Shown here piece after piece: positions 2,617-58,526 of a stretch of DNA of 64,000 nucleotides. Origin of the DNA: Anaerolineales bacterium. GTDB taxonomy: Bacteria > Chloroflexota > Anaerolineae > Anaerolineales > Villigracilaceae. The notes beneath the pieces are model-generated. The model saw only the letters and a list, made by a program, of their open reading frames with translations. It did no database searches and was not told where the DNA came from. How positions within the stretch are numbered: position 1 is the first letter of the stretch; the number at the start of each line of letters is the position of its first letter. A program made the translations under genes and the position numbers. The stretch spans positions 1 to 64,000 of the forward strand of contig JABARH010000018.1 in NCBI GenBank assembly GCA_019187665.1, in the 5' to 3' direction.

Positions 2617-2790
2617 TGTCGGCATTAGAGAATGCCGAGTACGCATAAATTGCGTAGTGGACGCTCTCTAGCGTCCAGGTTCGGCGTTAGAGAACGCCGA
2701 GTACGCATAAAGCCGAGCATGCATAAATCGTGTAGTGGACGCTCTCTAGCGTCCCATCGGCGCAAGAGAGCGCCGAGTACGCATAAACGA
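2617..2790. repeat. Array of TTAGAGAA-type palindromes between etfB and etfA
   Basis: Five related imperfect palindromes fill the gap: gcattagagaatgc, gacgctctctagcgtc (twice), gcgttagagaacgc and gcgcaagagagcgc, several followed by gagtacgcataaa. The core is a hairpin around TAGAGA with compensating changes in the arms (gacg/cgtc, ggcg/cgcc), which means the stem is kept while the sequence drifts. The array ends just before the etfA ribosome-binding site. Confidence 0.85.
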
Positions 2791-2799
2791 GGAGATAAC

Positions 2800-3738
2800 A
2801 TGAGCAACGATGTATTTGTAATCACCGAACACATGGACGGAAAATTTTCGGATGTGTCGTTTGAGTTGGTGGGAAAAGCCAAAGAGTTGGCGAAGGCTTG
2901 GGGCGGGCAGGCAGTTGCCGTCGTGGTCGGAAGCGGAATCGCATCCAACGTGTTCGCGTCCGATTCGACGATCCACATTGACGACGCGGCGTTGAGTCAT
3001 TTCAATCCCGAAGCGTATGGGAAAGTTGTTGAAGCGCTGGTCAAAGAAAGATCGCCGCGGCTGGTGATGTTCGGCTGGACGGTGACGGGCATGGACATGG
3101 CGGCGTGGTTGTCGGCGCGGCTGGGCGTGGCGTGCGCGGCGTATGTCAAAAATATCGGCGCGGATCTGACGATGAGTTGCGCGGCGTACGGCGGAAAGTT
3201 GACAGCGGAGGTCGCGCCCGAAGGCGGCATGGCGATCGCGGCGTGCCTGGCGGGTTCGTTCCCTGTGGAAGCGGGGCAGGGCTCGACGGCGGCAGTGACG
3301 ATGGCTTCGCCCGTTGATCTGAATTCGTTGAAAATGAAATTTGTCGAGGCGACCAAACCCGCTGGCGGCGATGTGGACATTACGTCGCAAACGAAATTAG
3401 TTTCGATCGGGCGCGGCATTGGCGGAAAAGAAAATATGGAGTTGGCGGAAGAACTCGCGCAGAAGTTGGGCGCGGTGGTGTCAGCTTCGCGTCCCGTCGT
3501 GGATGCGGGCTGGCTGCCGCGCACGCGGCAGGTCGGCAAATCGGGACTCAAGGTCAAGCCGAAGTTGTATCTCATGCTCGGCATCTCTGGCGCGCCTGAA
3601 CATCTCGAAGGCATGCAGAGCGCGGAGTTGATCATCGCGGTCAACACCGATAAGAAGGCGCCGATCTTCAATGTGGCACATTATGGCGCGACGGCGGATC
3701 TGTTTGAAGTGGCTGAGGCGATGGTGGAGTTGTTGTAA
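2800..3738 (+). CDS. etfA: Electron transfer flavoprotein, alpha subunit
   Basis: 312-residue EtfA. The C-terminal FAD domain carries the family signature SRPVVDAGWLPRTRQVG (about residue 228 on), then GISGAPEHLEGM where most family members have GISGAIQH, then VNTDKKAPIF and the final HYGATADLFE. The reading frame is open upstream to 2632, but that extension only translates palindromic repeats; AGGAG just before the ATG at 2800 and homology fix the start. It pairs with EtfB directly upstream. The likely electron acceptor is the membrane Hdr-like protein that follows 79 bases downstream. Confidence 0.95.
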   Translation: MSNDVFVITEHMDGKFSDVSFELVGKAKELAKAWGGQAVAVVVGSGIASNVFASDSTIHIDDAALSHFNPEAYGKVVEALVKERSPRLVMFGWTVTGMDMAAWLSARLGVACAAYVKNIGADLTMSCAAYGGKLTAEVAPEGGMAIAACLAGSFPVEAGQGSTAAVTMASPVDLNSLKMKFVEATKPAGGDVDITSQTKLVSIGRGIGGKENMELAEELAQKLGAVVSASRPVVDAGWLPRTRQVGKSGLKVKPKLYLMLGISGAPEHLEGMQSAELIIAVNTDKKAPIFNVAHYGATADLFEVAEAMVELL

Positions 3739-3750
3739 ATCTTCGATACT

Positions 3751-3794
3751 CGATATTCGATATTTGGTTTTCGAATAACCAATATCGAATATCG
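3751..3794. repeat. Inverted repeat of cgatattcgatatt words
   Basis: Arms 3751-3768 and 3778-3794 pair over about 17 bases with one bulge and a short loop. The hairpin sits between etfA and the membrane Hdr-like gene, ahead of a strong GGGAGGG ribosome-binding site. Confidence 0.7.
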
Positions 3795-3817
3795 CTTTTC
3801 GTTTTCGGGAGGGCACG

Positions 3818-5902
3818 TTGCTCACAACGATTGAAAAAATCATTTTCATCATTCTCGCGCTGACATCGGCGGGGTTTACGTTTCATGGATTCAAAGTCAT
3901 CATCGACTCGATCCGTAGGGGACGACCCGCGCCTGAGTTGAAGAATGTTCCGCTGAGCCTGGTCAAAGCGGCGATCACCGTTTTGTTCCAGCGCACGATC
4001 TTCAAGGCGCGCAAAGGTCTTAGCGCGATCCACATGGGATTGTTCTTCGGTCTCATCACGTATGCGTTCGTGAATCTGTTCGACGCGCTCGAAGGACTCG
4101 TCCCTGGCTTTGATTTGATCTACGGCGGCAAACACATCCCCAACGCGCCAACTGGACTCGTCAACGCTTTCAATCTCATCGCCGACGTGATGAGCATATT
4201 CCTGCTTATCGCTATCACCGTATTTTTTGCGCGCCGTTTCATCGCCAAGGATAAGGCGCTTAACTATCGCGAAAATGTTTTGTTGAATCCAAAAGTCAAA
4301 GCGGGCGGGCAGGCGCGTGATTCTCTCATCGTGGATGTGTTCGTCGTCATGCACGTCATCGCGCACGTGTTAAGTCAAGCCTATCGTCTCACCGACGGCG
4401 CCGATCCGTTCATGCCGTTCGCAAGTTTTCTCAATTCCATTTTCGGCGCGTCGCAAACGGGCGTACATGTCGCGTGGTGGGTCAGCATCGGCTGGGTGAT
4501 GTTCATCATCCCGTATCTTTCGCGCAGTAAGCACACGCATTTTTTCATGTCGCCCATCAATCTCGGACTCGCCAAACAAAATCCGCGCGGTCAACTCGAC
4601 CCTGCGATTCCGCTCACGATGATCGAAGGACAAAAGTTCGACCCTGGCGCGAAACACATTCACGATCTTTCGTGGAAGCGCGTTTTGGATTCCTATGCCT
4701 GCGTGCAATGCAATCGTTGTCAGGATGTCTGCCCTGCGAATTTTTACGGGCGTCCGCTTTCGCCTTCGGCATTGGAGGTGAACAAGCGTTATCTTCTCAA
4801 GGATGCGACCTTCGGCTCTCATCCCGACCGACTCCTGCTTCCGCTTACGGAGACAGTTATCTCCCCCGAGGCTGTTTGGTCTTGCACAACCTGTTACGCG
4901 TGTGTCCGCGTGTGTCCCGTCGGCAATGAGCCGATGGCAGACATCGTGGACATCCGCCGCCGCATGTTGATTGACGGTTATGAAATTGACAGCGGTGTGC
5001 AGAACGCGCTTCAATCCCTTGCCACGAACGGCAACTGGATGAGCAAAGGCAAACGTCTGCGCGGACGCTGGGCGAAGGAGATGCAGTTCCCCGTCAAGAA
5101 CGCGACCGAGGAACCTGTCGAGCATTTGTGGTTTGTCGGCGATACGGCTTCGTTCGATGAGCGCGTCATCCCGAACACAAAACTGGTGGCGCAACTCTTC
5201 CATCAAGGCGGCTTGGACTTCGGCATTCTCTATCAAAGCGAATCCAACGCGGGCAACGACGTCCGCCGCGTGGGGGAGGAAGGTCTGTTCGAGCAGTTGG
5301 TCGAGCAGAACATGGAAGCGTTCGGCAAGGCGCAGTTCAAGCAGATCGTGACGACCGATCCGCATTCGTTCAACACGCTCAAGAACGAGTATCCGCAATT
5401 CGGCGGGACGTTTGAAGTGAAGCATTACACTGTGACCCTGCTCAAGTTAATTGAAGAGGGCAAACTCACGGTCAAGAATAAGTTGGCGAACTACAAAGTC
5501 ACCTTCCATGACCCGTGCTATCTCGGACGCTACAACGGCGGATTCACCGCTCCGCGCAAACTGCTTGAACTGCTCGGCGTGGAATTCGTCGAAATGCCGC
5601 GCAACTGTGAAAACTCATTCTGCTGCGGCGCGGGCGGCGGTCAGATCTGGATGGGCAAGGTCGCGCCTGGCGAACGTCCCGCAGAGAATCGAATCAAGGA
5701 GGCGTTGTCCACGTTTGGCGAAGGCGCAGGCGACAAAACTCAACTCTTCATCGTCACCTGTCCGAAGGACATGATCATGTACTCCGACGCGGTCAAGACT
5801 ACAGGCAACGAAGGCAGGATCGAAGTCCGCGATATTATTCAATTGGTGGCGGAGGCGGTCGGCGTGGACGAAGTTGTGGCGGCTGAATCCATTTCGGCTT
5901 AA
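3818..5902 (+). CDS. Membrane Hdr/DUF224-type Fe-S protein, probable EtfAB:menaquinone oxidoreductase
   Basis: 694 residues with a TTG start six bases after GGGAGGG. The N-terminal 270 residues hold about five membrane helices of the NarI/HdrE b-cytochrome type with candidate haem histidines. Two ferredoxin motifs follow (C295-C298-C301-C305 and C356-C359-C362-C366), then CCG-type domains. As in the soluble HdrCB-like protein, the first CCG-like half has lost its cysteines (the SNAGND and TDPHSFN regions) while the second keeps Cys567, CC602-603 and Cys648. This architecture is that of the membrane-bound ETF oxidoreductases described in syntrophic fatty-acid oxidisers (EMO, DUF224) and of mycobacterial EtfD. 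It should pass electrons from EtfAB to menaquinone at the inner face of the membrane. Linkage to etfBA supports this. Confidence 0.87.
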   Translation: MLTTIEKIIFIILALTSAGFTFHGFKVIIDSIRRGRPAPELKNVPLSLVKAAITVLFQRTIFKARKGLSAIHMGLFFGLITYAFVNLFDALEGLVPGFDLIYGGKHIPNAPTGLVNAFNLIADVMSIFLLIAITVFFARRFIAKDKALNYRENVLLNPKVKAGGQARDSLIVDVFVVMHVIAHVLSQAYRLTDGADPFMPFASFLNSIFGASQTGVHVAWWVSIGWVMFIIPYLSRSKHTHFFMSPINLGLAKQNPRGQLDPAIPLTMIEGQKFDPGAKHIHDLSWKRVLDSYACVQCNRCQDVCPANFYGRPLSPSALEVNKRYLLKDATFGSHPDRLLLPLTETVISPEAVWSCTTCYACVRVCPVGNEPMADIVDIRRRMLIDGYEIDSGVQNALQSLATNGNWMSKGKRLRGRWAKEMQFPVKNATEEPVEHLWFVGDTASFDERVIPNTKLVAQLFHQGGLDFGILYQSESNAGNDVRRVGEEGLFEQLVEQNMEAFGKAQFKQIVTTDPHSFNTLKNEYPQFGGTFEVKHYTVTLLKLIEEGKLTVKNKLANYKVTFHDPCYLGRYNGGFTAPRKLLELLGVEFVEMPRNCENSFCCGAGGGQIWMGKVAPGERPAENRIKEALSTFGEGAGDKTQLFIVTCPKDMIMYSDAVKTTGNEGRIEVRDIIQLVAEAVGVDEVVAAESISA

Positions 5903-38402: not shown

Positions 38403-39121
38403 TGTCTCTGCAAAACCAGGTTACCCTAAAACGACTTCGGGAGGTAGATCCACCGGAGAAATGGAAACGCGCATCGTTTATGGTACAGATCTTCTTTCGT
38501 CCCGTTTCTTATCCCGTTACCTGGCTGTTGGTAAAACTGGGCTTTGCCGCCAATCATGCCACGTATCTTTCCGGGTTGGTTTCGGTGTGCGGGGCTGCCC
38601 TGCTCATTGCCGCAAACCGCGAAATGAATGTGGCCGGGGCTGTATTATTCAATCTCTGGGCTGTCTTGGATTGCGTTGACGGCACATTGGCGCGTTACCG
38701 GGGAAGTTCCAGCAAACATGGGGATTTTGTTGACACGGTGTTTGGCTACCTCGCCTTCGGGATCGTATTTATCGCGATGGGCGTAACCGCTGAAAACACC
38801 AAAGCGCTTGGCCCAATTCCGCTGGGCCACATCAATTTTATTATCATTGGCGCATTTGCCTCCATGGGCGACTTGTTCATGAGGCTGGTTTATCAACGTT
38901 TTTTTTCCGCTTATCAAAACGCATTGTACGGCGAAAAAACTTCGAATCGCAGGCTTGGCAAGGAATTTGCCCTCACCGGTCTCCTGGCGCCATTATTGTT
39001 GGTTTCAGTGATATTCAACGTAACGACCTGGCTCGTGTTGTTCTATGCGGCCTTCAATATAGGCGCCTGTTCTTTGAGCGCGTTCAATATGCTGAGAAAA
39101 TCCGAAACGCTGGGAAAATAA
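38402..39121 (+). CDS. CDP-alcohol phosphatidyltransferase family membrane protein
   Basis: 239 residues with about six membrane helices. The CDP-alcohol motif reads DCVDGTLAR, eight residues, G, DFV, D, TVF, G (about residues 93-119). In the family consensus the final position is the fourth Asp, the proposed catalytic base; here it is Gly. The first three Asp are intact. With the nucleotidyltransferase downstream it would form a route that makes and transfers a CDP-activated polyol or alcohol phosphate. Either the catalytic residue is displaced or the protein is impaired. Confidence 0.82.
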   Translation: MSLQNQVTLKRLREVDPPEKWKRASFMVQIFFRPVSYPVTWLLVKLGFAANHATYLSGLVSVCGAALLIAANREMNVAGAVLFNLWAVLDCVDGTLARYRGSSSKHGDFVDTVFGYLAFGIVFIAMGVTAENTKALGPIPLGHINFIIIGAFASMGDLFMRLVYQRFFSAYQNALYGEKTSNRRLGKEFALTGLLAPLLLVSVIFNVTTWLVLFYAAFNIGACSLSAFNMLRKSETLGK

Positions 39122-39569
39122 TGGGGGCTTCTGTAGAAGCCAGAGTCCCCTTTGTTGATCATGCATTAGTGGAGTTTCTGTCTTCGGTCCCATTTCATTA
39201 TAAAATTCGATGGAAATCATTGCTGCATGAGGTGATGGCGGGCGTTTCCAATTCTGATGAAATTAGCGAACGATACGACACCACAAAATACATCCTGCGC
39301 CGGGCATTTATGAACGACTTGCCAGATGCGGTTCTTGAACGGCGGAAGGTCGGCTTTCCGGTGCCATTAAGCCAGTGGTTTGACAAGCGCTATCGCGCGC
39401 ACCTTCATGAAATACTGCTGGACCCCTCGTTATCGAGGTGGGCCTGTTAAACAAGACAGAACTGGAAAAGTGGTTGGAAAACGCAGGCAATAGTCAAGAT
39501 CCCAGGCACGGGATAAAATCCTGGATGTTGATGAATCTTATTCTTTGGTTACAGAGCCGGTCTCCATAA
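39121..39569 (+). pseudogene. Truncated, frameshifted asparagine synthetase (asnB-like) remnant
   Basis: The open frame 39121-39450 encodes only the C-terminal synthetase region of AsnB (GASVEARVPFVDHALVEFLSSVPFHYKIR, then VLERRKVGFPVPLSQWF). At about 39437 homology shifts to the next frame, which continues GLLNKTELEKWLENAG and ends at a TAA at 39567-39569. The glutaminase domain and PP-loop are absent. The start codon overlaps the previous stop (TAATG). It is a remnant of a second asnB, probably left by recombination that brought in the CDP-alcohol gene. Confidence 0.85.
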
Positions 39570-42917: not shown

Positions 42918-44126
42918 ATGCCTGACAACAAAAACAGCCCCGCCCGCCACACCGATCTGCGCGCCCTGAGCGCGATCATCAGCGGCCGCCTCGCGCAGGC
43001 TGGTTGGGAATCGTTCACCGAAGAGGCGTGGGAAGCGTTGATCGCCGGGTCGCGCCGGCAGGGGGTCGCGCCGCTCCTCTACTGGGTGTTTTCCCAGTCC
43101 GGCAATTTGGCCCGCCTGCCCGAAACCGTTCGCGACCCGCTGCGCCTGTCATACGCCCGCACGCTGATGCAGAACCAATTGTGCTTTCGAGAGTTGGAGT
43201 CCCTATCGCGCGCGTACGCACAGGCGCGCATCCCGCTCGTGCTTCTCAAAGGCGCCTGCTACGCGCTGACCGTCTATCCCGACGCGGGACTGCGCCCGAT
43301 GGCCGACCTGGATGTGCTGGTCCCGATTGCCCGTCTGGATGAAGCGGTCGGCCTAGCCTGCTCGCTCGGCTACCGGGCAACGCGTCCTGAAGCCTCGCCC
43401 GGTCTGAACGAACTGTTCAGCCACGAAGTCCTTCTGCAAAAAGAATTTCCTCACCCCATGGCGCTGGAAGTGCATTTCAGCCTGGTGGCCGACCGTACCT
43501 TTCAATATGCTGTTTCTGTAGACTGGTTTTGGGAGCAGGTCGAGCCGCTTGATTCTCCCTCCGCCGGGCGGTTCGAAAACCTGCTGATGTTGACCCCTAC
43601 CGCCCAGGTGTTGTACGCCGCCTCACATGCCATGCTCCAGCACGGAGGCCACAACGCCCCGCTGCGCTGGTTCTTCGATCTCGATCAGTTGGTTCGCCGG
43701 TACGCAACGCGGCTGGACTGGGAGCTGCTCGTTTCGCAGGCCGGGACCTTTGAGTGGGGTTCGGCGCTGCGCGCCGCCCTCGTCCAGACCGAGGCTTATT
43801 TCGAGACTCCCATTCCCCCTTCCGCGCGCACCGCGCTCTTCGCACAAACAGATCGTCACGCGGAGCTGGTCGCGTTTAAGCAGTCTTCTCCCGAAACGCA
43901 TATTCTCGCCGAGACTCGTGCGCTAGCTTCCCTCAATTGGTGGGGACGCCTGCGCTTGATTTTCGCGCTGCTGATGCCCGGCCCGGCCTATATGCGCTGG
44001 CGGTATAATTTTCAGAACAACTGGCTTTTGCCGCGTTATTATTTGTTGCGCTGGTGGGGCATTTTTAAGGACCTGCTGCGCACCCTGTCTGTGTTGTTGA
44101 AAAGGCGTTCGTCCACGAACGCGTAG
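42918..44126 (+). CDS. Nucleotidyltransferase-family protein of lasso-peptide clusters (PF14907-like)
   Basis: 402 residues. The segment LVLLKGACYALTVYPDAGLRPMADLDVLVPI (about 105-135) contains the KG and DxDxLV pattern of the uncharacterised nucleotidyltransferase family often found beside lasso-peptide genes. LEVHFSL and RWFFDLDQLVRRY follow. The C-terminal 50 residues include a basic amphipathic region. It may modify the peptide with a nucleotide or sugar-phosphate group, which is unproven. It is 17 bases from the B2 gene. Confidence 0.78.
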   Translation: MPDNKNSPARHTDLRALSAIISGRLAQAGWESFTEEAWEALIAGSRRQGVAPLLYWVFSQSGNLARLPETVRDPLRLSYARTLMQNQLCFRELESLSRAYAQARIPLVLLKGACYALTVYPDAGLRPMADLDVLVPIARLDEAVGLACSLGYRATRPEASPGLNELFSHEVLLQKEFPHPMALEVHFSLVADRTFQYAVSVDWFWEQVEPLDSPSAGRFENLLMLTPTAQVLYAASHAMLQHGGHNAPLRWFFDLDQLVRRYATRLDWELLVSQAGTFEWGSALRAALVQTEAYFETPIPPSARTALFAQTDRHAELVAFKQSSPETHILAETRALASLNWWGRLRLIFALLMPGPAYMRWRYNFQNNWLLPRYYLLRWWGIFKDLLRTLSVLLKRRSSTNA

Positions 44127-44143
44127 ATTCCTCATTTGCGCCC

Positions 44144-44602
44144 ATGTCCAAGAGTCATGAAAACATGGTCTTCCTTGTAGATCGGCTGCGCCGCGCCGCC
44201 CGTCTCTCTCCTGCGGAATGGCTGGACTTTTTCCGGGCCTGGTTCTGGCTGCTATTCTTCGACATTGCCCTGCGCCTGCGCCCCTTCCCGGAATTGCAGG
44301 CATTTGCCTCCCGCCTCGTCTCCCGCCCGACTCCCGCCCCCGCGCGCGTTCAGCAGATTCTCCGCCTCCTCCCGCTGGCGGTGGAGCGCGCCCGCGCCCG
44401 CCATCTGCGCCCGATGACCTGCCTGCGGCGGTCGCTTGCCTTGCAAAAAATGTTCGCTCAAAAAGGCGTGCCCACCGATCTCAAGATCGGCGTTCGCAAG
44501 GAAGGCGGCCAGATCAGCGCGCATGCCTGGTTGGAATATGAAGGCAATTTACTGGGAGAGCCAGAAAAGATCACAGAGCAATATGCCGTTCTACAAAAGT
44601 AG
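44144..44602 (+). CDS. Lasso-peptide leader peptidase (B2 protein, transglutaminase-like)
   Basis: 152 residues. The C-terminal half carries the B2 signature: RPMTCLRRSLALQKMFAQKG with catalytic Cys93, DLKIGVRKEGG, and SAHAWLEYEG with catalytic His127. This matches the cysteine-protease domain that removes the leader of lasso precursors, as in McjB. The N-terminus, about 75 residues, is helical and has no RRE (PqqD-like) domain, so the recognition element must come from elsewhere. Product and precursor lie 3 kb downstream. Confidence 0.9.
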   Translation: MSKSHENMVFLVDRLRRAARLSPAEWLDFFRAWFWLLFFDIALRLRPFPELQAFASRLVSRPTPAPARVQQILRLLPLAVERARARHLRPMTCLRRSLALQKMFAQKGVPTDLKIGVRKEGGQISAHAWLEYEGNLLGEPEKITEQYAVLQK

Positions 44603-44608
44603 CCCGCC

Positions 44609-45163
44609 ATGAAAAGCGATCTTCCGAACACCCTGACCAACGCCAACCAGCTATGCGTGGAGTGTGGATTATGCTGTACCGGTCACCTGTTTACCCATTT
44701 AACGTTGAAGCCAGGGGAAGAAGCCAAAGCCGATTTTTTAGGACTGGAACATTCGGACCCGGCGGCTAAGATTCGCCTTGTATTTCCATGTCACCTGTGG
44801 AATGGAAACTGCTCCATCTACGCTCACCCATCCAAGCCCAATATTTGCGACGCGTACCAATGCGGCCTGCTCAAAAAAGTGACCGCCCAACAGGTTGACC
44901 TGCCGGAAGCGTTGAAGGCGGTACGACAAATCAAACAGGTAATTTCCGAATTGGAACCCATGCTGGAAGGGAAGCCTGATCAGGCCTTTCTCAAACGCCT
45001 GATCGACCAGGTATCCAGCCTGGAATCATCCGGGCATGGGAATGCAGACGAATTGAATTTCCGTCTCAAAGCGGGGGTCGTACTGGTTCTTTTCAAAAAA
45101 TATTTCGACAGGCGCGAATTCAAGGCGCAGCGGCCCGTCAGCAACGAGGAATCCATTCCATGA
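44609..45163 (+). CDS. YkgJ-family Cys-cluster (zinc/iron-binding) protein
   Basis: 184 residues. The Cys pattern CVECGLCCTGHLF, CHLWNGNCSIYAHPSKPNICDAYQCGLL gives eight cysteines in the order of the YkgJ / CxxCxxCC family. The rest is a helical C-terminal part. The gene overlaps the lasso cyclase start (ATGA), so it is translationally coupled to it. It may bind metal and take part in peptide maturation or folding, but no function is established for the family in this setting. Confidence 0.85.
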   Translation: MKSDLPNTLTNANQLCVECGLCCTGHLFTHLTLKPGEEAKADFLGLEHSDPAAKIRLVFPCHLWNGNCSIYAHPSKPNICDAYQCGLLKKVTAQQVDLPEALKAVRQIKQVISELEPMLEGKPDQAFLKRLIDQVSSLESSGHGNADELNFRLKAGVVLVLFKKYFDRREFKAQRPVSNEESIP

Positions 45164-47061
45164 GCCGCATCTGTGGCATCTTCCACCTTGACGGCTCGCC
45201 CATAGAGCCGGAACAACTTAATCAAATGGCAGAGGCCGCCGCCTACAACGGGCTGGACGGTCCCCGAATCTGGACCGAAAAAAACGCCGGGCTGGCCCAC
45301 CTGGCCCTGCACACCACCCCCGAAGCGCGCTTCGAACAGCAACCAATGCGCGACCCGCACACCGGCGCGATCTGGGCCGCAGATGCCCGTGTAGATAATC
45401 GCGCTGAACTGATCGAGTTCTTTCGCAAGACGGGCGATATCATGGGCGATGAGATCGTCACAGATATAGAATTGCTGATATATGCCTACCGCCACTGGGG
45501 AGAGGATTTCCTTCCGCATATTTATGGAAACTATGCATTTGTGATGTGGGACCCGGCTCGGCAGCGCGTCTTCGCTGGCCGCGACTTTCTGGGATTGCGC
45601 CCCCTGTTCTATATGCGCCGCGGCCAGACTGTTTATTTTGCCTCCGTCCTTCGTTCTATCCTGGCGATATTGCCCGAACGTCCGCCATTGAACGAACTGT
45701 TGATCGCCGACTATTATCGCTACAACTTCGAGCGTTGGGTGGCCGAGACCGTCTACCTGCCCATCCGCCGCCTGCCCGCCGCCTGCCAGGTTGTTGTGGA
45801 TGCTCAGCGCGCAGACATTAAGCAGCACTGGATGATCGTGAATGGGCCGATTTTGCAGTACCAGAACGATCAGGATTATTATGATGAATTTCTCGAACGC
45901 TTCGAGTCGGCGCTGAAAGCCTGCGCGCGCACCGCTGACCCGCTTGGTATTCAACTCAGCGGGGGCGTTGATTCGTCTTCGGTCGTCTGTGTCTTGCATA
46001 AACTATGGGTGGAAAACCGACTGCAGGGCGGCATCCCTCCATCGGTACACTTGTTGTACATGCACTATGCCAACGAACGAATCGAGGACGAGATCGAATA
46101 TTATGATACCGTGAGTAAAGCCTGTCCTCAATTTGTGTCTACGGTGCTGCCGGGCGAAAATTATTGGGGGTTACAAGAGGCCGGCCGCGAAAACAATTAC
46201 CGCCTGGATGAGCCCGAACTGCAGGTGATGAGGAGCTCCGCGACGGCGCTGGCCCGCAGGTTGAGGCAGGAGGGGGGGCGGGTGGCGCTTCAGGGGAGCG
46301 GGGGCGATGAACTCTTTGAGATATACTATACCGATATAAAGTTACTGCGAGACCTGCCATTTGCAAAATGGCCCAAGGCCTTTAAGTTCTCCCGCCAATT
46401 TATGGGGCCGGCTGGAAATCTTCGGCTGGCCGGGCGGGCAATCCTTCAAGTCGCCGGGCTATTGCCTGCGTGGCGCAGGTTGCGCGGTGCCTTTCCCCGC
46501 TGGGTGCGCCAGGAATGGGTCCGAAAAGCGGAGGCGAACCCGCCCGATTTTAAACTGGCGATTCCGGATGGGTTCAGCAATGAATTACAGCGCATCCGGC
46601 AGGACGGCATGTTTACCGGGGGACAGTATCTTTCCGGGCTGCAGGGCGTACAATATCATGCGGCGGAGCATGGCCTGGAAGTCCGCTGCCCCTTCCTGGA
46701 TCGTTCGCTGATCGAGTTTACCTTTCGACTGCCCACAGAACGTCTGATGAATTATGAATCTGTATTCAAACCCTTTCTCAAAGCAGCCTTACGCGGAATC
46801 CTGCCCGATGCGATCACAAAACGTACCGACCACGCGGTCGTTGACCCGACGATTCACCTCGGTTTGAGAAACAAAGAGGCCGCAAAAGCGTCTCGCCTGC
46901 TCGACCGGGCGCGGGCGGAACAGATTGACTTCTTGAAATTTTTTGAATATAATGCGCACTGGAAGCGTTACACGGAGGGTGTAACGCGCTTACAGGGCGC
47001 GTTGTTCGCCCCCTTATTATTCCAGGCCTGGATGGATGATTCCTGGCATGAGGTTGGTTAG
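45160..47061 (+). CDS. Lasso-peptide cyclase (C protein, asparagine synthetase-like)
   Basis: 633 residues. AsnB-like, but the N-terminal nucleophile is missing: the protein begins MSRICGIF, so Cys is not at position 2 and the glutaminase domain should be inactive, as in McjC-type cyclases. The PP-loop is QLSGGVDSSSVVCVL (about 265-279) and GSGGDELFEIYY marks the second ATP site. It adenylates the side-chain carboxylate of a ring Asp or Glu and joins it to the N-terminal amine of the core. The precursor gene starts nine bases after its stop. AsnB homologues of primary metabolism keep Cys2, as the gene at 34724 does. Confidence 0.93.
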   Translation: MSRICGIFHLDGSPIEPEQLNQMAEAAAYNGLDGPRIWTEKNAGLAHLALHTTPEARFEQQPMRDPHTGAIWAADARVDNRAELIEFFRKTGDIMGDEIVTDIELLIYAYRHWGEDFLPHIYGNYAFVMWDPARQRVFAGRDFLGLRPLFYMRRGQTVYFASVLRSILAILPERPPLNELLIADYYRYNFERWVAETVYLPIRRLPAACQVVVDAQRADIKQHWMIVNGPILQYQNDQDYYDEFLERFESALKACARTADPLGIQLSGGVDSSSVVCVLHKLWVENRLQGGIPPSVHLLYMHYANERIEDEIEYYDTVSKACPQFVSTVLPGENYWGLQEAGRENNYRLDEPELQVMRSSATALARRLRQEGGRVALQGSGGDELFEIYYTDIKLLRDLPFAKWPKAFKFSRQFMGPAGNLRLAGRAILQVAGLLPAWRRLRGAFPRWVRQEWVRKAEANPPDFKLAIPDGFSNELQRIRQDGMFTGGQYLSGLQGVQYHAAEHGLEVRCPFLDRSLIEFTFRLPTERLMNYESVFKPFLKAALRGILPDAITKRTDHAVVDPTIHLGLRNKEAAKASRLLDRARAEQIDFLKFFEYNAHWKRYTEGVTRLQGALFAPLLFQAWMDDSWHEVG

Positions 47062-47069
47062 GAGGCATC

Positions 47070-47264
47070 ATGGATACTCAAGACAATTTGAATGAACGAA
47101 GTGCAGATGAACAGCAGGCGGAAACGGTCGTTCGCCTGCAATATAAAACACCGGTTCTCGAAGCGCACGGCGATTTTGACGCATTAACACAGGGTTGGAC
47201 CTCCGGCAAGTATAACGATCCCTACCCCGGCGGAAAAGGCTCTCTTTACATTACCAAAGTATGA
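47070..47264 (+). CDS. Lasso-peptide precursor (A protein)
   Basis: 64 residues. The leader (1-41) has the recognition motif YKTPVLEAHG (Y25, P28, L30, G34) and the conserved Thr40 at position -2. The predicted core starts at Gly42: ring GWTSGKYND closes from Gly1 to Asp9 (Asp50), and the 14-residue tail is PYPGGKGSLYITKV. The 9-residue ring and absence of cysteines indicate a class II lasso peptide of 23 residues. GGAGG precedes the ATG. The tail has Leu-Tyr-Ile as likely steric plugs. The sequence matches no lasso peptide I know. Confidence 0.92.
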   Translation: MDTQDNLNERSADEQQAETVVRLQYKTPVLEAHGDFDALTQGWTSGKYNDPYPGGKGSLYITKV

Positions 47265-47465
47265 TTATTTTGCCGGCCTTGAGCGGGCGGCGCGGTCCTT
47301 GTGCCGCGCGCATGGGGCTGCCTGGGTTGAGCGCCTTTCAAGCCTTTTAAACCCTGATTTCGCCGGGCCAGGGAAGTGGCTTCCGGGTGGCTGGGGCGGT
47401 GAGCGCCTCTCTTTTTCGCGGGAGCGCGTCGGGCCGATGTACGTTCTGGCGCTGGATCACCCTCG

Positions 47466-48401
47466 ATGAATGATTACCGGCTGTTTGGCTTCGCCGTGCG
47501 CAGCGTGTTGAATTTCGACTCGCAGTTGGAACGAATTCGATGCGACCAGCCAGACTGCGAAATCGTGGACTCGCCGGTCCCCTTCGATGAAATCGAGGGG
47601 GACCTATGGTATGAAACTCCCGATACAGATGCGAAAACACAGCGGCCCCATATGTTGCTGTATTCATCGGCGAGGGGGGCGCTCCTGTCTTATCCCGCTT
47701 TCGGACAATTTGAAATACAGGCGGACCACATCCGCTATTACCTGAACGGCGACTTGGATATTCAGACCCTGGAGGCCATCCTGTTTCGGGCGGCGTTGAT
47801 CCTGTGGCTGGAATGGAACAATATGCCGGTGATGCACGCCTCCAGCGTCGTGATTGATGATTCGGCCATCGGTTTTCTGGCCGAAAGCGCTGGCGGGAAA
47901 AGCACGTTGGCGGCCGCGTTTGTGAGCGGTGGCGCCCGGTTGCTGGCCGACGATATTCTGCCCATTCGACACACGCATGAATATCAGGCGCGCCCCGGAT
48001 ATGTGTTTTTAAGACTCCGACCGGAAACAGCCGCGGCATTGAATTTTCTCAATGGCAGGACGTTCGAGACGGATCCGCCGAAGCAGGTGATACGGCTCAG
48101 TGAAAGCCGCGGCCAGGTTTGTCTTGATCCAACCCCGCTGGCGGCGCTGTACTTCCCTGTGCGACGGGACGATGTTGCCGCGATCTCCATTGAAACAATG
48201 TCGCCCCGCCAGACGTACCTGCGCTTGCTTCACTACACGTTTACCGGCTCGATTCTGACGCGCAGCCCACTCATGCCCCGCCGGATGAGTTTTCTGGCCC
48301 ATCTGGCGAAGGAGATCCCAATCAAGCGACTGGTCTATCCCTCCGGTTACGAACATTTGCCGGCGGTTGTAGATGCCGTCCGGCAGGACCTCGGTCTATA
48401 A
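47466..48401 (+). CDS. HprK-like kinase of the lasso cluster
   Basis: 311 residues. The P-loop is ESAGGKSTL (about 139-148), followed by GARLLADDILPI, which is the (H)RLVADD signature of HPr kinases; VMHASSVV precedes it. The N-terminal third resembles the non-catalytic part of HprK-related proteins. Such kinases in lasso clusters phosphorylate a C-terminal Ser of the precursor; here the precursor ends in Val, so the target might be Ser17 or Thr21 of the core, or something else (inference). It starts 201 bases after the precursor stop, a gap with no convincing gene. Confidence 0.83.
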   Translation: MNDYRLFGFAVRSVLNFDSQLERIRCDQPDCEIVDSPVPFDEIEGDLWYETPDTDAKTQRPHMLLYSSARGALLSYPAFGQFEIQADHIRYYLNGDLDIQTLEAILFRAALILWLEWNNMPVMHASSVVIDDSAIGFLAESAGGKSTLAAAFVSGGARLLADDILPIRHTHEYQARPGYVFLRLRPETAAALNFLNGRTFETDPPKQVIRLSESRGQVCLDPTPLAALYFPVRRDDVAAISIETMSPRQTYLRLLHYTFTGSILTRSPLMPRRMSFLAHLAKEIPIKRLVYPSGYEHLPAVVDAVRQDLGL

Positions 48402-48577
48402 AAACAGACGCTTGTTCTTCGCCCATGGCTGGAAGACGCTGACCCGGCTCTGACGTTTCGGGCGTAAGCGGCGCTTCCTTGTGTTGAAGGCAGGCAGGCG
48501 AAAGTCCTGAAAAATGTGCGACGCGGGCAATAAAAATGGAAGCCAGTTGTAGCGAATCCACCCAGAAGGTTCAACGA

Positions 48578-50050
48578 ATGTCCACTTCAGATATGCGCGC
48601 CTGGGGAGACCGTGTTTTAAAGCGCGGCTTTGACATTTTTCTATCTGCGCTTGGGCTGCTGTTCCTCGCGCCTTTCTTCGGCCTGATCGCCATCCTCATC
48701 AAACGCGAGGATGCGGGCCCCGTCTTCTTTCACGGGTCCCGCGTGGGGCTTGGTGGGCGTGAATTTAACATCCTCAAATTTCGTACCATGCGCGAAGCCC
48801 CGGAAAGTTATAACGGCCCGCGCGTCACGGCCCGCAACGACCAGCGCGTCACGCCGCTGGGCAGGTGGTTGCGCGACACCAAACTCAACGAACTACCCCA
48901 ACTGTGGAATGTATTAAAAGGTGAAATGAGTCTGGTCGGGCCGCGTCCTGAAGACCCACAGATCGCCGCGGAGTGGCCCGAAGAGGTCCGCCGCGAGATA
49001 CTCTCCATCCGCCCCGGAGTCACCAGCCCGGCCAGCATCTCCTACCGAAACGAGGAGGAACGCCTTTCTGCTGACGACCCGATAGCGCAATATCTGCACG
49101 AGATCCTTCCCGACAAAATGCGCCTGGATCGCCTCTATATCCGCCATCATTCCTTCCTTGGCGATCTCGATATATTGTTTTGGACCGCTATCGCGCTGCT
49201 GCCCGCGGCCGAACAGCGCATCCCTGAAAGTAAACTATTTGCCGGCCCCTTCAATGGGCTGATACGTCGAAACGTACGCTGGTTCTTCATTGACCTGGTC
49301 GTGTCCATGCTTGGCGTCTCGCTCGCGGGTTTGCTCTGGCGCGCTTTTAAAGTAATTGATTGGGGACTGCCCTCTCTAGCCTTTCTGGCGGTGTTGATCG
49401 CGCTGGTGTTCAGCCTGGTCAATCATTTCTTCGGCCTCGACCGTGTCCTGTGGTCGCGGGCGGGCGTCGAGGATGGAGCGGTGTTGGTTTTTGCGAATCT
49501 GTTGGCCACAGGAATGATACTGGCGGCCAATTTCTTCCACGTCTCCAATCTTGCCTGGCTGCCTTATCCGGCGCTCTCGAATCAATTGATCTTTTTAATC
49601 GGGCTGTTTACCGCGCTGGGCGGATTACTGTCGCGCTTTCGCCTGCGCCTGATCACCGGATTTGCCGCCCGCTGGATTCGCCTGCGCGGCAGAAGCGGCG
49701 ACATCGGCGAACGCGTGATCATTCTGGGCGCGGGCGAGGGGGGGCAGATTGTCAACTGGTTGCTGCATCGCCAGTCATTACATCGTGCGTTCTCTGTGAT
49801 CGGCATGGTGGATGACGACCCTGCCAAACAGGACATGCGCATTGATGGCTGTTCCGTGCTGGGCAACACATCCGACCTTCCCGCCCTTGTCGCCAAACAC
49901 GATATCGGCGTAATCATCTTTGCCATCGCCAACCTTTCCCGCAAGGAACATGCCCGTCTCTCGCGCCTGTGCGAGATTCCCGGCGTGCGCGTGGTTTTCC
50001 TCAACGACATTCTAGGGACGATGCAGAGTCGTCTGGTCTCGTCCGCGTGA
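48578..50050 (+). CDS. Sugar-phosphate transferase with C-terminal membrane and Rossmann domains
   Basis: 490 residues from an ATG eight bases after AGAAGG. Residues 10-205 form a bacterial sugar transferase (LKRGFDIFLSALGLLFLAPF, NILKFRTM, TKLNELPQLWNVLKGEMSLVGPRPED). About four membrane helices follow (about 225-350), and residues 375-490 form a CoA-binding-like Rossmann domain (ERVIILGAGEGGQIVNWLL, VIGMVDDDPAKQDMRIDGCSVLG). In WbaP-type enzymes the membrane/Rossmann part precedes the transferase; here the order is reversed. It should start glycan synthesis by moving hexose-1-phosphate to undecaprenyl phosphate. Confidence 0.87.
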   Translation: MSTSDMRAWGDRVLKRGFDIFLSALGLLFLAPFFGLIAILIKREDAGPVFFHGSRVGLGGREFNILKFRTMREAPESYNGPRVTARNDQRVTPLGRWLRDTKLNELPQLWNVLKGEMSLVGPRPEDPQIAAEWPEEVRREILSIRPGVTSPASISYRNEEERLSADDPIAQYLHEILPDKMRLDRLYIRHHSFLGDLDILFWTAIALLPAAEQRIPESKLFAGPFNGLIRRNVRWFFIDLVVSMLGVSLAGLLWRAFKVIDWGLPSLAFLAVLIALVFSLVNHFFGLDRVLWSRAGVEDGAVLVFANLLATGMILAANFFHVSNLAWLPYPALSNQLIFLIGLFTALGGLLSRFRLRLITGFAARWIRLRGRSGDIGERVIILGAGEGGQIVNWLLHRQSLHRAFSVIGMVDDDPAKQDMRIDGCSVLGNTSDLPALVAKHDIGVIIFAIANLSRKEHARLSRLCEIPGVRVVFLNDILGTMQSRLVSSA

Positions 50051-53352: not shown

Positions 53353-55929
53353 ATGCCTTTTTTACAGTTTAATGCGGAGTCGTTGAAAACGATTCTCGAA
53401 CAGATTGACGATCCTGGCGCGCTGGATTCCCATCCGTGGGCAGACGCCGCGTTCGTGCAGGAGTTTGTGACGCGCAACCCAAACTGGGAGGAGGCGAGTC
53501 GCGGCCGTCAATTGGCTCACGCGCTCGAAGAAGTGTTCGCGAATACGCGGCCGGCCGTCCCGCCGCGGCGCGGCAAACGACTGGATACCAGCTGGGGAGA
53601 ATTTGGCCTGCTGGCCGCGCTGTATTTTGCCCCGCTTCAATTTGGCGCGCCCATTCCCGAATCGTTTCGCGACGCGTGGGGGCGCATTGACCATTCCATT
53701 TTGTTATACACCTTTGGCCGCGCCGACGGGGTGCCCGCGCAGCAGGCGCAAACTTATAAACTGGTCGGCGACGAACTGCAGGTCGCTTCGAACAGCACGC
53801 TCAGCGACTGGCATCGAAAGGGGATTCAACAATTGGTCGAAGCGGTCCACGCTCGCGAACGCTTCGCGCAGGAAGCCGCCTCCACGCCGAATCAGGCGGC
53901 GGCTCCGGGGCGAAGCGAGGCGGGAAAGGCGCCCAACCGAGTGAGACGGAAAATCACATGGGTTGTCGCACTATCCCTGTTCCTTCTACTGCTCGCCTGG
54001 GCTGGATTCAAAGCCTGGCGAATTTACAACCTTGCGGCCGTTGTGTGGGAGGATGTCAATGCAATGCGCGGCCTGGGACTGACCGAACCGGATGTGGCCG
54101 CGTTGCAGGCGGCCGGGCCAAAACTTTCCGTGTTGCGCGAAGACGTTCACGCGCTGCACGAGGAGGTTGAGCCGCTTCTTTGGATGGGGCCTTTGCTTCA
54201 ATGGGTGCCGGCGTATGGCGGCGAACTGGCTGAGGCGCGGAATTTATTGATTATGGCCGATTCTACGCTTGCGGCCACAGATGGTTTATATCGGGCGTTT
54301 TCACCGCTGTTGGATACGATCGCAGACACCGACGCCGGTTCGAATTTTGACCTGGCGAAAATCACTCAACTTATGAGCGACGCCCGCCCGCAATTGATCG
54401 AGGCGCAAGCATGGGTGGAGGAGGCCGCCCAGGCCCGTGAACGAATTGACCTGGAACGGCTTTCGCCGCGTACCCGTGAGGCCATGCTGCTTGCCGACAA
54501 GGCGCTCCCATGGATGCAGGATGGAATTGTCATTGCTCTTGAATTTCCGCATATGATGGGCGCCACGGATCAGGGCCCAAAGACCTATCTCCTGCTCGCT
54601 CAGAATGAGGATGAGCTGCGCCCGACCGGGGGATTTATTACCGCCGCGGGAACTTTAATGATGCAGGATGCGCAAATAGGCAATTTGACGTTTCAAGGTT
54701 CAGGAACCCTCGATGACTGGACGAAGGCCTACCCCTCCGCGCCGTGGCAACTGCATCAATATATGAACAGCGAGGTGCTGGTGTTGCGCGACGTGAACTG
54801 GTTTGCCGATTATCGCGTGGCGGCCTTATACGCGGAGACGTTCTATGCCTATCAGAACGACCATTCGGTGGATGGCGTGATCGTCATAGACCAGCATTTG
54901 CTGGTGGAACTGTTGCGCGTGACCGGGCCGGTCCATGTGGAAGGTTCGACTGAACTCATTGGAGCCGATGGCGTGGTGGAATATATGCGCGCCCAAAAGA
55001 TCCCGCCCTGGGAGATCACCGAGGCCAATTCGGCTTTGTGGGACAACAAAGAGTTTATCAACAGGCTGACCACTGCCCTGCTAAACCGGATTCTCGACGG
55101 CGGTTTTGAATTGGAGCAAATGATGCGCGTGCTGCTACAGATGCTCGATGAACATCATATCCTGCTTCAATTCGACAACCCCGCATTGACTCCGGTTCTC
55201 GTCCGCCGCGGCTGGGATGGGGCGATTCGCCCCGGCACGGGTGATTTCCTCATGGCAGTGGATTTCAATTCCGGCTTCAACAAGACCAATGCGGTTGTGG
55301 AAAGACGGCTGGGATACGAAGTGAATCTGTCCCGCCCGGATGCTCCGGGCGCGCAGCTGAGTATTACGCATGTGAACCAGGCCGCTAAGCTTCCCTGCCT
55401 GCCTGAGTTTTTGATGACGCCCATATTGAATGAGATCGAGAAACAACAATACGCGGAGGAAAATTATCCCATCAACCGCTGTTACTGGGCGTATGTGCGC
55501 GTCTATACCGCGCCCGGAACCGAGTTGCTGGACGCCAACCCGCAGACCATTTCCGGCGAGACCCTGCTCAGCGGATTCGATGTCCCGCCGCAGGTGGACG
55601 CGCTGGGCAGGGAGGAGGAACTTCAGGGCGTGCAGGGATTTGGCTTCCTCAAACTGGTGCAAGGCGGCGAAACGGTGGAGACGAACCTCCGCTTTGGGCT
55701 GCCTGCTTTTGTGGTCGTGCAGGAGGCGGATGGATCGTGGAAATATCAACTGCGCGTGCAGAAACAGCCCGGCACGGTCGCGGTTCCGTTCGTGTTACGC
55801 GTCCAATTGCCGACGGGCGCGGTTGTCCAATCCATGCCGGAAGAGGCCGTTTTCGAAAATGGAACGGTCGTTTTGCAGACCGACCTGCAGCTGGATTTGA
55901 ATTTGGAAATTTTGTTCACCGTTCCGTAA
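53353..55929 (+). CDS. DUF4012 membrane-anchored protein
   Basis: 858 residues. A cytoplasmic part of about 200 residues precedes one membrane helix (about 200-222, TWVVALSLFLLLLAWAGF). The outside part contains the DUF4012 signature YLLLAQNEDELRPTGGFITAAGTLMMQDAQIGNLTFQGSGTL (about 415-455) and GVIVIDQHLLVELLRVTGPVHVEG. DUF4012 proteins recur in polysaccharide clusters of Chloroflexota and Actinobacteria; their reaction is not known. It follows the LysM gene by 14 bases, in the same operon. Confidence 0.82.
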   Translation: MPFLQFNAESLKTILEQIDDPGALDSHPWADAAFVQEFVTRNPNWEEASRGRQLAHALEEVFANTRPAVPPRRGKRLDTSWGEFGLLAALYFAPLQFGAPIPESFRDAWGRIDHSILLYTFGRADGVPAQQAQTYKLVGDELQVASNSTLSDWHRKGIQQLVEAVHARERFAQEAASTPNQAAAPGRSEAGKAPNRVRRKITWVVALSLFLLLLAWAGFKAWRIYNLAAVVWEDVNAMRGLGLTEPDVAALQAAGPKLSVLREDVHALHEEVEPLLWMGPLLQWVPAYGGELAEARNLLIMADSTLAATDGLYRAFSPLLDTIADTDAGSNFDLAKITQLMSDARPQLIEAQAWVEEAAQARERIDLERLSPRTREAMLLADKALPWMQDGIVIALEFPHMMGATDQGPKTYLLLAQNEDELRPTGGFITAAGTLMMQDAQIGNLTFQGSGTLDDWTKAYPSAPWQLHQYMNSEVLVLRDVNWFADYRVAALYAETFYAYQNDHSVDGVIVIDQHLLVELLRVTGPVHVEGSTELIGADGVVEYMRAQKIPPWEITEANSALWDNKEFINRLTTALLNRILDGGFELEQMMRVLLQMLDEHHILLQFDNPALTPVLVRRGWDGAIRPGTGDFLMAVDFNSGFNKTNAVVERRLGYEVNLSRPDAPGAQLSITHVNQAAKLPCLPEFLMTPILNEIEKQQYAEENYPINRCYWAYVRVYTAPGTELLDANPQTISGETLLSGFDVPPQVDALGREEELQGVQGFGFLKLVQGGETVETNLRFGLPAFVVVQEADGSWKYQLRVQKQPGTVAVPFVLRVQLPTGAVVQSMPEEAVFENGTVVLQTDLQLDLNLEILFTVP

Positions 55930-56015
55930 ATCCGGCTCAAATCCGAACCAGATAATTCTTAATTAACGAGTAAAATCCGAGACGATATTTCCAAAATTCT
56001 GAAAGGAGAAATCTG

Positions 56016-57017
56016 ATGAAACATTTGGTTCCAATTCTGGTTGTCGTTGCTCTCGTGCTGGCGGTGATTGGCGTAGCCAACGCCGGTCAACTGGCAAAGG
56101 GCAACACGGCAGGCGATAGTTCGCTCTTTCCGAAGTCCATCGTGGTGACCGGCTCCGGCTTCTTCAATGTCGGCGGCGTCTGCACCCTGGACATTAATTA
56201 CAAGGTCGAGAACCTGAAGAACAACATCGACTCCGAAATCCCCATCAGAGAGTCGCAGCAGGTTCCGTGGGCATATTCCCCGCGCGAACTGTTCTACCCC
56301 GGTTGCCACGTTGTCCACTTCAAGAACGATCAGGAAGTCAAACAGGCTGACGCCAACGACGGTTCGTGGACGGTCTGCTTTGGCAACCGCTCTGAACTGG
56401 ATGACAAGATCTATTACTACGCCGACAAGCCCGACAATGGCGTCCGCGAGTGGATCGAACTGCCCACCACCGTGAGCGGCACGTACATCTGCACGGATGC
56501 CATTTACAGCGGCGTATACATGCCCGCTGGTCTGGTCGAACCGACGCCGCGTCCCGGCGGGGTAGGCGAGGGAACGCCTGCGCCCACGCCGCTGCCCGGC
56601 TCAATTCAGCCTCCGCCTCCCTCCAACCGCATCACCGAATCCGGGTCGTACTCGATCGGCGGCATCTGCTCCATCATCGTTCTTTACAAATGGCCCAACC
56701 TTTCCGATGACGTGTGGGTGGAGCCTCTCACGCAGGACACCAAAACCATCCCCTTCCCGCACGATACGGATGTGTTGTACCTGCCCGGCTGTCACGTGAT
56801 TCACTACGAGCCGGTCTATCTCGAGACCACGGAAGAGATGGGCGAATGGAAGATCTGCTTTGCTGAACGCCCCGGAAAAGAAATGACCATTTACTACTAC
56901 ACCGACGATCTCGACTCGATCATCCCGCCGTGGACGCCGCTCCCGACCACCAGCGAGAATGGCCAGGCTTGCGCCCCCGCCAACTGGACCGGCGTGTACG
57001 TCCCAGCCGGACGCTGA
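56016..57017 (+). CDS. Secreted protein with two related Cys-rich domains
   Basis: 333 residues. A signal peptide (1 to about 24, LVPILVVVALVLAVIGVANAG) precedes two copies of a roughly 140-residue domain joined by a Pro-rich linker (about 170-205). Matching segments are GGVCTLDI / GGICSIIV, YPGCHVVHF / LPGCHVIHY, WTVCFG / WKICFA and YICTDAIYSGVYMPAG / QACAPANWTGVYVPAG, so each copy has four cysteines in register, probably two disulfides. Aromatic-rich strands suggest a beta-sandwich. GAAAGGAG precedes the ATG. No known family is recognised; a secreted adhesin or glycan-binding role is only a guess. Confidence 0.8.
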   Translation: MKHLVPILVVVALVLAVIGVANAGQLAKGNTAGDSSLFPKSIVVTGSGFFNVGGVCTLDINYKVENLKNNIDSEIPIRESQQVPWAYSPRELFYPGCHVVHFKNDQEVKQADANDGSWTVCFGNRSELDDKIYYYADKPDNGVREWIELPTTVSGTYICTDAIYSGVYMPAGLVEPTPRPGGVGEGTPAPTPLPGSIQPPPPSNRITESGSYSIGGICSIIVLYKWPNLSDDVWVEPLTQDTKTIPFPHDTDVLYLPGCHVIHYEPVYLETTEEMGEWKICFAERPGKEMTIYYYTDDLDSIIPPWTPLPTTSENGQACAPANWTGVYVPAGR

Positions 57018-57092
57018 TCGCACCTCGCGTACTTCGACATGCTCCGTTGACGAACAGGGCAGAGGATCTCCTCTGCCCTGTTTTAATACCCA

Positions 57093-58526
57093 ATGCGATC
57101 CCGCTTCGCTCCTCCCGCGTTGCTCGTCGCGGCCCTCTTGTGGGTCTATGGCTCGACTCTCGCGCCCGGCCTGACATGGTCGCACGGCGGCGCGGACGGC
57201 GGCGACCTGATCGCTGCGACCGCGACCGGCGGCGTGCCGCATCCCACCGGCTACCCGCTCTATCTCCTGCTCGCGGGGATGTTCCAGCGCCTGCCAATCG
57301 GCCCGCTGGCTTTTCGCACGAACCTGCTTTCCGCGTGCGCGATGATCGGAGCGGCGCTGCTGGTGTTTTTTCTGGTCGAGCAATATTTTTTGCGCGCATC
57401 GCGCCTGGTGGCTGCCTCTTCTGGGTTGGCGGCCGCGTTCTCGTTCGCGCTTGCGCCGCTGGTCTGGTCGCAGGCGGTCATCACCGAAGTGTATGCCCTG
57501 CACGCGCTGTTCGTCGCCGCGCTATTGTTTTTGTGTTCGGGCGTGGCTCCCAATCTGTTAGAAAATAAATTGGATTATGTCACCGGGCTGGCCTGCGGCC
57601 TGGCGATCGGGAATCATCTTACTTCAATCTTTCTGCTCCCGCTGGCCTTATTTTGGAAGCAGGATTGGGCAACGCTTTGGAGACGGATCGCATTCATCGC
57701 GCTCGGACTCTCCTCCTACCTGATCCTCCCATTGCGCGCGGCGGGACATGCGCCGGTCAATTGGGGCAACGCGTCCACCTGGAACGGATTCCTCTGGTTG
57801 GTGTCGGGACGCCTGTACCAGGATGACGTTCTCGCATTGACCATGCCCGGCTTCCTGGAGCGGATTCAGACGTTTGCATCTTTATTGCTCAAACAGTTTG
57901 GTGCGGCCGGGTTGATCCTTGCGCTCCTCGGCGCGGTGATATTTTTTGCGCGGTCGCGCTTTCACGTGAACCTGATCTGGTCGGCGGCTGTTTTTTCGAT
58001 CTTTTCCCTGTTGTATGCCGCGCGTGACTGGCAGGTATATTTAATCCCCACCTTTTTATGTTTTGCGGTCTGGATCGGGATCGCGCTCGGCAACCTGATG
58101 CAACGCTGGCCGCGCAGACAGCTTTGGCTGGCCGGCCTTTTTGGCGTGTGGCTGATCTTTTCCGCCGCGCACACCTGGCCGCACGTAGACCTGTCTCGCG
58201 ACCTGCAAGCCGAACAATTCGGCGCGTCGATTCTCGCGCAAACGCCGCAGGAAGCCATGCTCTTTGTTACCGGCGATGAGGCCGTCTTCACTCTCTGGTA
58301 TTTCCATTTTGCCCTGGGAGAACGCCCCGATGCAGCGGTCGTCGCCGCGGACCTGCTGCACTTCGACTGGTACCAGCAAACGCTGCGGGCGGCGTACCCG
58401 GCCCTGGTTGTGCCGGGCCCGCTTCCCTTTGTCGAGAGCGTACGGCAGGCCAACCCCTCCCGACCGGCCTGTTATGTTGTTTTTCCGCAGGAGGCGCCCA
58501 TTGAATGTCTCGAAGCCTCGCGTTGA
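57093..58526 (+). CDS. DUF2723-family membrane glycosyltransferase-like protein
   Basis: 477 residues with about ten membrane helices. The DUF2723 start is visible: YGSTLAPGLTWSHGGADGGDLIAATATGGVPHPTGYPLYLLLAGMF, with the Asp pair equivalent to the catalytic DG/DE loop of PMT-like GT-C enzymes. The C-terminal 130 residues are extracytoplasmic. It probably transfers sugar from a polyprenyl donor on the outer face. Its acceptor is unknown. Confidence 0.83.
   Translation: MRSRFAPPALLVAALLWVYGSTLAPGLTWSHGGADGGDLIAATATGGVPHPTGYPLYLLLAGMFQRLPIGPLAFRTNLLSACAMIGAALLVFFLVEQYFLRASRLVAASSGLAAAFSFALAPLVWSQAVITEVYALHALFVAALLFLCSGVAPNLLENKLDYVTGLACGLAIGNHLTSIFLLPLALFWKQDWATLWRRIAFIALGLSSYLILPLRAAGHAPVNWGNASTWNGFLWLVSGRLYQDDVLALTMPGFLERIQTFASLLLKQFGAAGLILALLGAVIFFARSRFHVNLIWSAAVFSIFSLLYAARDWQVYLIPTFLCFAVWIGIALGNLMQRWPRRQLWLAGLFGVWLIFSAAHTWPHVDLSRDLQAEQFGASILAQTPQEAMLFVTGDEAVFTLWYFHFALGERPDAAVVAADLLHFDWYQQTLRAAYPALVVPGPLPFVESVRQANPSRPACYVVFPQEAPIECLEASR

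Follow-up and report, generated by a model that had tools for sequence, protein, structure and literature searches.

The window, a 64,000-nucleotide stretch of an Anaerolineales genome, carries between positions 42918 and 48401 six genes on the forward strand that encode, in order, a nucleotidyltransferase, a B2 leader peptidase, a YkgJ-like protein, a macrolactam synthetase (cyclase), a precursor peptide (precursor A) and an HprK-like kinase (Table 1). This is a genuine lasso-peptide operon that is incomplete by itself, with no B1 gene. A sequence-only reading had recognised a lasso cluster here, and family searches bear it out: the precursor and B2 score above the cut-offs of NF033521 and NF033537, and NF033535 is the best family for the cyclase. 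All the genes it named are present where it placed them. Its list omitted the YkgJ-like gene and, having no B1, fell short of a full lasso pathway, a lack that it passed over; the complementary half-cluster, which contains B1 and lies on another contig (C43), was also overlooked.

Table 1. Features of the lasso operon in the window and of the second operon on contig C43.
Feature	Position	Strand	Evidence or remark
NTP_transf_5 nucleotidyltransferase, 402 aa	42918..44126	+	PF14907 E 7e-49
Lasso B2 leader peptidase, 152 aa	44144..44602	+	NF033537 74 bits, cut-off 33
YkgJ-like Cys-cluster protein, 184 aa	44609..45163	+	PF03692 E 4e-4, just under cut-off
Lasso macrolactam synthetase/cyclase C, 633 aa	45160..47061	+	NF033535 best NCBIfam match
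Promoter-like TTGACT-17-TATAAT, 117 bp 5' of precursor start	46925..46953	+	consensus match only, 11/12
Lasso precursor A, 64 aa	47070..47264	+	NF033521 lasso leader 22.8 bits, cut-off 19; AGGAGG ribosome-binding site
A-K gap (~200 bp), split open frames, terminator-like hairpin 47393-47409	47261..47469	+	no homologue
HprK-like kinase K, 311 aa	47466..48401	+	PF07475 E 0.0016, TIGR04352 E 2e-5 (weak but consistent)
Bacterial sugar transferase, polysaccharide locus, neighbour outside lasso operon	48536..50050	+	PF02397
C43 HprK-like kinase	1071-2138	same strand as rest of C43 operon	
C43 precursor A2, YHSPLLNEWGDLQSRTL/GGFNKFDD...	2300-2524	same strand as rest of C43 operon	
C43 cyclase	2535-4436	same strand as rest of C43 operon	
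C43 B1	4491-4775	same strand as rest of C43 operon	lasso PqqD chaperone models best, under their cut-offs

As had been noted from the sequence, the operon stands between surface-polysaccharide genes on the same strand. Glycosyltransferases, Wzy_C, an asparagine synthase-type protein and methyltransferases are encoded on its 5' side, and the sugar transferase, a Wzz/tyrosine-kinase-type protein and a DUF4012 protein on its 3' side. This association of lasso and polysaccharide genes is recurrent, and peptide and glycan might, as the sequence-only reading suggested, be co-expressed. In two other genomes of the same family (loci L073 and L074), lasso B1-B2 genes lie immediately 5' of homologues of the window genes at 53353, 56016 and 57093, and several lasso loci of other Chloroflexota and of cyanobacteria are likewise flanked by Wzz-type genes. 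The open-access literature offered no equivalent when searched for a lasso operon in Anaerolineae, for lasso genes combined with YkgJ or with polysaccharide genes, or for split or orphan lasso clusters, and gave little on lasso peptides in the phylum Chloroflexota as a whole.

The leader of precursor A, YKTPVLEAHGDFDALTQ, has Y-17, P-14, L-12, G-8 and T-2 at the canonical spacing, with YKTP as its YxxP motif, in agreement with the YxxP leader and Thr -2 described earlier. The strict motif Y..P.[LIV].{9}T.G.{5,7}[DE] has a single match when all six frames of the window are read, and none in 60 Markov-shuffled copies. The core, GWTSGKYNDPYPGGKGSLYITKV, consists of the ring GWTSGKYND and the tail PYPGGKGSLYITKV, and its C-terminus is ITKV, with Val as the last residue. 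Since Asp9 is the sole acidic residue of the core, a lasso ring here can only comprise nine residues, which upholds the proposed Gly1-Asp9 linkage. The predicted mass of the cyclised core (9-residue ring and 14-residue tail) is 2469.233 Da before tailoring, and the product, having no cysteine, is best explained as a putative class II lasso peptide.

Among some 300 genomes of the phylum we found no relative of precursor A, bar one marginal leader match. Its best PDB sequence match, 8ITG chain B (the MS-271 precursor), covers the leader and not the core, and is suggestive, not significant, because its E-value is only 0.45. The core thus appears to be undescribed, as had been claimed, and would represent a new lasso peptide of known class. 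Precursors of the same leader type with different cores and various C-terminal residues adjoin the cyclases of relatives (L027, L028, L029, L036, L073 and L080), that of L027 having the leader YASPKLHEYGRLADLTQ and a core starting GTYKFGYKD. An argument against the cluster from the absence of conserved precursors beside related cyclases therefore fails. Codon scores are coding-like for precursor A, B2 and the YkgJ-like gene, and intermediate for the orphan frame in the A-K gap, which may be a decayed gene or an untranslated region. The promoter-like site 5' of the precursor and the terminator-like hairpin 3' of it, both consensus matches only, could allow separate and stronger expression of the precursor.

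The B2 protein has a Cys in MTCLRR, a His in AHAW and an acidic residue in GEP; an alignment shows the Cys/His pair reported earlier to be kept in its relatives. In the cyclase, Ser2 (MSRI...) replaces the catalytic Cys2 and the motif SGGVDSS is present, so the earlier description of a cyclase without Cys2 holds. It scores 316 bits against NF033535, under the strict cut-off of 525, and is 29-33% identical to the cyclases of B1-B2-C-A-K clusters. As a single-protein query it found no match in the genome contigs; an alignment-based search did, and its closest relatives proved to be from Chloroflexota. The seven other same-genus genomes searched contain no close relative. Kinase K has the Walker A sequence SAGGKST and is homologous to kinases in the lasso clusters of relatives. 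The nucleotidyltransferase is a possible tailoring enzyme. Both are present, as the sequence-only reading had said in comparing the locus to modified lasso clusters; the gain of 80 Da that it suggested for phosphate is weakly founded, since paeninodin-type C-terminal phosphorylation is unlikely on a core that ends in Val and not Ser.

The YkgJ-like gene shares 4 nt with the start of the cyclase gene. Alignment of the YkgJ-like protein shows an invariant CxxCGxCC...C...C...C pattern. The gene is missing from the other lasso loci examined, and can be rejected as a standard lasso gene. As its homologues in the family adjoin unrelated genes, in housekeeping contexts, it looks recruited; metal-dependent tailoring, metal delivery or immunity would be guesses at its role.

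No B1 (the RiPP recognition element, or RRE) was found in the window, with PF05402 applied genome-wide and a home-made B1 profile applied to all six frames. The frame 47239-47469 was considered for this part and rejected, having no match to PqqD or another family and no convincing homologue in 22 genomes, as were radical-SAM-like proteins on contig C19, whose weak N-terminal PqqD-like domains are not stand-alone lasso RREs. Cutting of the leader by B2 requires leader-bound B1 (PMC5067487). The whole genome (57 contigs, 98.45% complete) encodes one stand-alone PqqD-family protein above cut-off, on C43, and one lasso B2 above cut-off, that of the window. The C43 gene belongs to an operon (L009) of B1, cyclase, precursor A2 and kinase, on a single strand and without B2. 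The operons form two halves that complement each other, B2 being in the window and B1 on C43. Y-17, P-14, L-12, G-8, D-7 and T-2 occur at matching positions in both leaders, that of A and that of A2 (6/17 residues identical).

C43 is a contig of 10.6 kb that ends 1.07 kb past the kinase gene. A 114-nt inverted repeat lies on either side of its operon (951-1064 and 4924-5037, 94%) and has 40 scored matches over many contigs of the genome, including C9 at 83302. A gene neighbouring the operon has a relative 82% identical in the same genus and one 72% identical in another genome of the family. C43 is taken as native because it shares the repeat family with C9 and has the 82% relative in the genus; a contaminant contig is argued against by the dispersed repeat and the congener gene.

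B1 lies within 5 kb in 21 of the 23 loci of this class that have B2 and cyclase within 5 kb and a B2 not cut by a contig end, a selection by similarity of B2 or cyclase rather than a random sample; L032 was left out because its B2 is at a contig edge. The two exceptions are the window and L080, a B2-C-A-K locus of genome G643, which is assembled in 5 contigs and has a single PqqD (E below 1e-5), standing alone on a different contig. Loci with B1-C-K and no B2 recur in Chloroflexota, Cyanobacteria and Acidobacteriota (L119, L121, L127, L134, L149, L162, L164 and L190). B2 is present elsewhere in all 12 genomes tested, eight of them with B1-C-K loci lacking B2, and often adjoins another B1; a further locus in one genome (G754) has a precursor, a kinase-like gene, B1 and B2, with no cyclase detected. 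Judged by gene content, trans complementation would be possible in most genomes, and only the window genome and G643 appear to have their sole B1 unlinked to B2 and cyclase.

The reading that we favour, at a probability of about 0.62, is that the locus specifies a lasso peptide which is itself new but belongs to a known class, its production relying on two operons that share B1 and B2 in trans. Since the window encodes no B1, this protein would be supplied from the C43 operon and would bind both leaders, A and A2. B2 of the window would cut precursor A after Gln(-1), once its leader is bound by the RRE, and would also serve the C43 operon, which has no B2 and would borrow this one. Each cyclase would close the ring of its own operon's precursor, that of the window joining the Gly1 amine to the Asp9 side chain. 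Kinase K may phosphorylate the peptide at other Ser/Thr residues, the known C-terminal Ser site being missing. We infer the exchange of B1 and B2, the threading, and the support or tailoring by the kinase, nucleotidyltransferase and YkgJ-like protein. Cross-recognition of leaders is plausible because the RRE FusB1 binds non-cognate leaders, both YxxP and WxxP; other RREs discriminate strongly among leaders (PMC13381572). Such discrimination, with only 6 of 17 residues in common between the two leaders, counts against sharing.

The lack of a B1 could also mean that the operon once had its own and lost it, the peptide being no longer made. Such decay would fit the ~200 bp that separate A from K, which contain a broken or orphan frame with intermediate codon scores. 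The remaining genes, however, are all undamaged and closely spaced, the codon scores of A, B2 and the YkgJ-like gene resemble those of coding sequence, the precursor keeps a strong ribosome-binding site, an intact leader and a plausible ring, and the genome does encode a B1; we regard decay as unlikely. Less probable again is a gap in the assembly, by which both operons would really be complete. A B2 past the end of C43 or a B1 in a gap is conceivable because the genome is in 57 contigs, is 98.45% complete and has its short C43 contig stop 1.07 kb after the kinase, but the gene order of the window is unbroken for tens of kb on both sides, C43 has no space for B2 at the usual B1/C position, and in G643, assembled in 5 contigs, the only B1 lies away from the B2-C-A-K locus.

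That B1 is dispensable, the leader being bound in cis by the YkgJ-like protein or by B2 or C themselves, seems slightly more doubtful still. The 4-nt overlap with the cyclase gene, in an operon that is alone among the lasso loci examined in having a YkgJ-like gene, gives the idea some colour; against this, the family consists of Cys-cluster metal-binding proteins without PqqD similarity, its homologues lie in housekeeping contexts, the precursor A leader retains the conserved Y/P/L/T positions, and L080, the other B2 locus without B1, has no YkgJ-like gene. Least probable, and very improbable in our view, is a product other than a threaded lasso: an unthreaded, branched macrolactam, or a peptide that is processed but stays linear. 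Threading is not predictable from sequence and the divergent cyclase falls under the strict NF033535 cut-off, yet B2 and the cyclase fit lasso families, as do the leader and the ring position, and relatives keep conserved precursors.

Beyond the sharing of B1 and B2 in trans, a stronger and more tentative form of the idea, to which we give about one chance in three, makes the two operons obligate partners, one B1 serving two leaders and one B2 two precursors, so that the two lasso peptides are tied to each other. This would amount to a general split lasso organisation, overlooked by single-cluster mining and perhaps linked to polysaccharide production. Genome mining for lasso peptides looks for B1, B2 and C in one place. 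Should distant operons routinely have B1 and B2 in common, many clusters classed as incomplete may work, and heterologous expression of one cluster alone would fail, predictably. The operon pair is a natural and directly testable case of RRE cross-recognition.

The MS-271/siamycin-type precursor (8ITG chain B), with the leader YEPPMLQEVGDFDELTK, is identical to the precursor A leader at 9/17 positions (YxxPxLxxxGDFDxLTx) and has the same Asp9 ring position; MS-271 is a Cys-containing tricyclic peptide, whereas the core of precursor A has no Cys. Lasso clusters with a kinase and a nucleotidyltransferase are already known (PMC7533575). The pseudomycoidin cluster, as cited there, also carries a nucleotidyltransferase (PsmN), a likeness of gene type; the window operon differs in having an HprK-like kinase as well and in being without B1. 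Paeninodin-type clusters of Bacillota (C-A-K-B1-B2-D; PMC5067487) likewise have a split B, an HprK-like kinase and the same core enzyme set. The window operon differs from them in having YxxP where paeninodin has WxxP, a hallmark of its leader (PMC13381572), in lacking B1 and a transporter, in its additional nucleotidyltransferase and YkgJ-like genes, and in a core that ends in Val, not Ser; the characterised paeninodin-type kinase phosphorylates a C-terminal Ser, a site that precursor A is without. The Chloroflexota B1-B2-C-A-K clusters L026-L029 have a homologous B2 (41-43%), cyclase (30-33%) and kinase (33-37%) and a conserved leader; in three of the four, A and K are separated by a phosphoribosyltransferase-RRE fusion. 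In these clusters B1 adjoins B2, unlike in the window operon, and it is the placement of B1 and B2 in two complementary operons that appears to be new here.

In lasso loci of several phyla, a phosphoribosyltransferase domain and a C-terminal PqqD/RRE domain are joined in one fused protein, the phosphoribosyltransferase domain of which carries a conserved loop of the VVVDDxxxSG type. The fusion gene lies between precursor and kinase in three Chloroflexota lasso clusters (L026-L028). The fusion protein is a candidate for an unreported tailoring enzyme.

Phosphoribosyltransferase-PqqD/RRE fusions (PRT-RRE) and DUF4012 / TMEM260-like polysaccharide modules, by locus
Feature	Locus	Position	Strand
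PRT-RRE	L026	9526-10509	
PRT-RRE	L027	9830-10813	
PRT-RRE	L028	7122-8102	-
PRT-RRE	L113	8135-9319	
PRT-RRE	L115	8123-9040	
PRT-RRE	L127	8260-9162	
PRT-RRE	L152	11402-12679	
PRT-RRE	L159, L164, L169, L116		
Module	window	53353-58526	
Module	L073	10156-15392	
Module	L074	1177-6113	

In the window, precursor and kinase are separated by approximately 200 bp (47261-47469) in which the open frames are split, with ATGA overlaps at each end and intermediate codon scores; a decayed gene, a frameshift and an untranslated region are alternative readings. The same DUF4012 / TMEM260-like polysaccharide module adjoins the lasso genes in three genomes of the family. The polysaccharide locus of the window includes a 109-residue piece of an asparagine synthase-type protein (39121-39450), an apparent remnant.

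Elsewhere in the genome of the window, a 114-bp repeat, possibly a MITE-like element, flanks the lasso operon of contig C43 on both sides as an inverted pair (L009 951-1064 and 4924-5037), and has at least 40 matches in this genome. Two radical-SAM-like proteins are encoded side by side on contig C19 (29367-32149; L002, L003); each has a weak PqqD-like domain at its N-terminus, and the pair perhaps represents another peptide-modifying system. In genome G754, one locus (L196 6716-8532) has a precursor, a kinase-like gene, B1 and B2, with no cyclase detected, and a second (L119) has B1, cyclase and kinase without B2; together they are another split arrangement.
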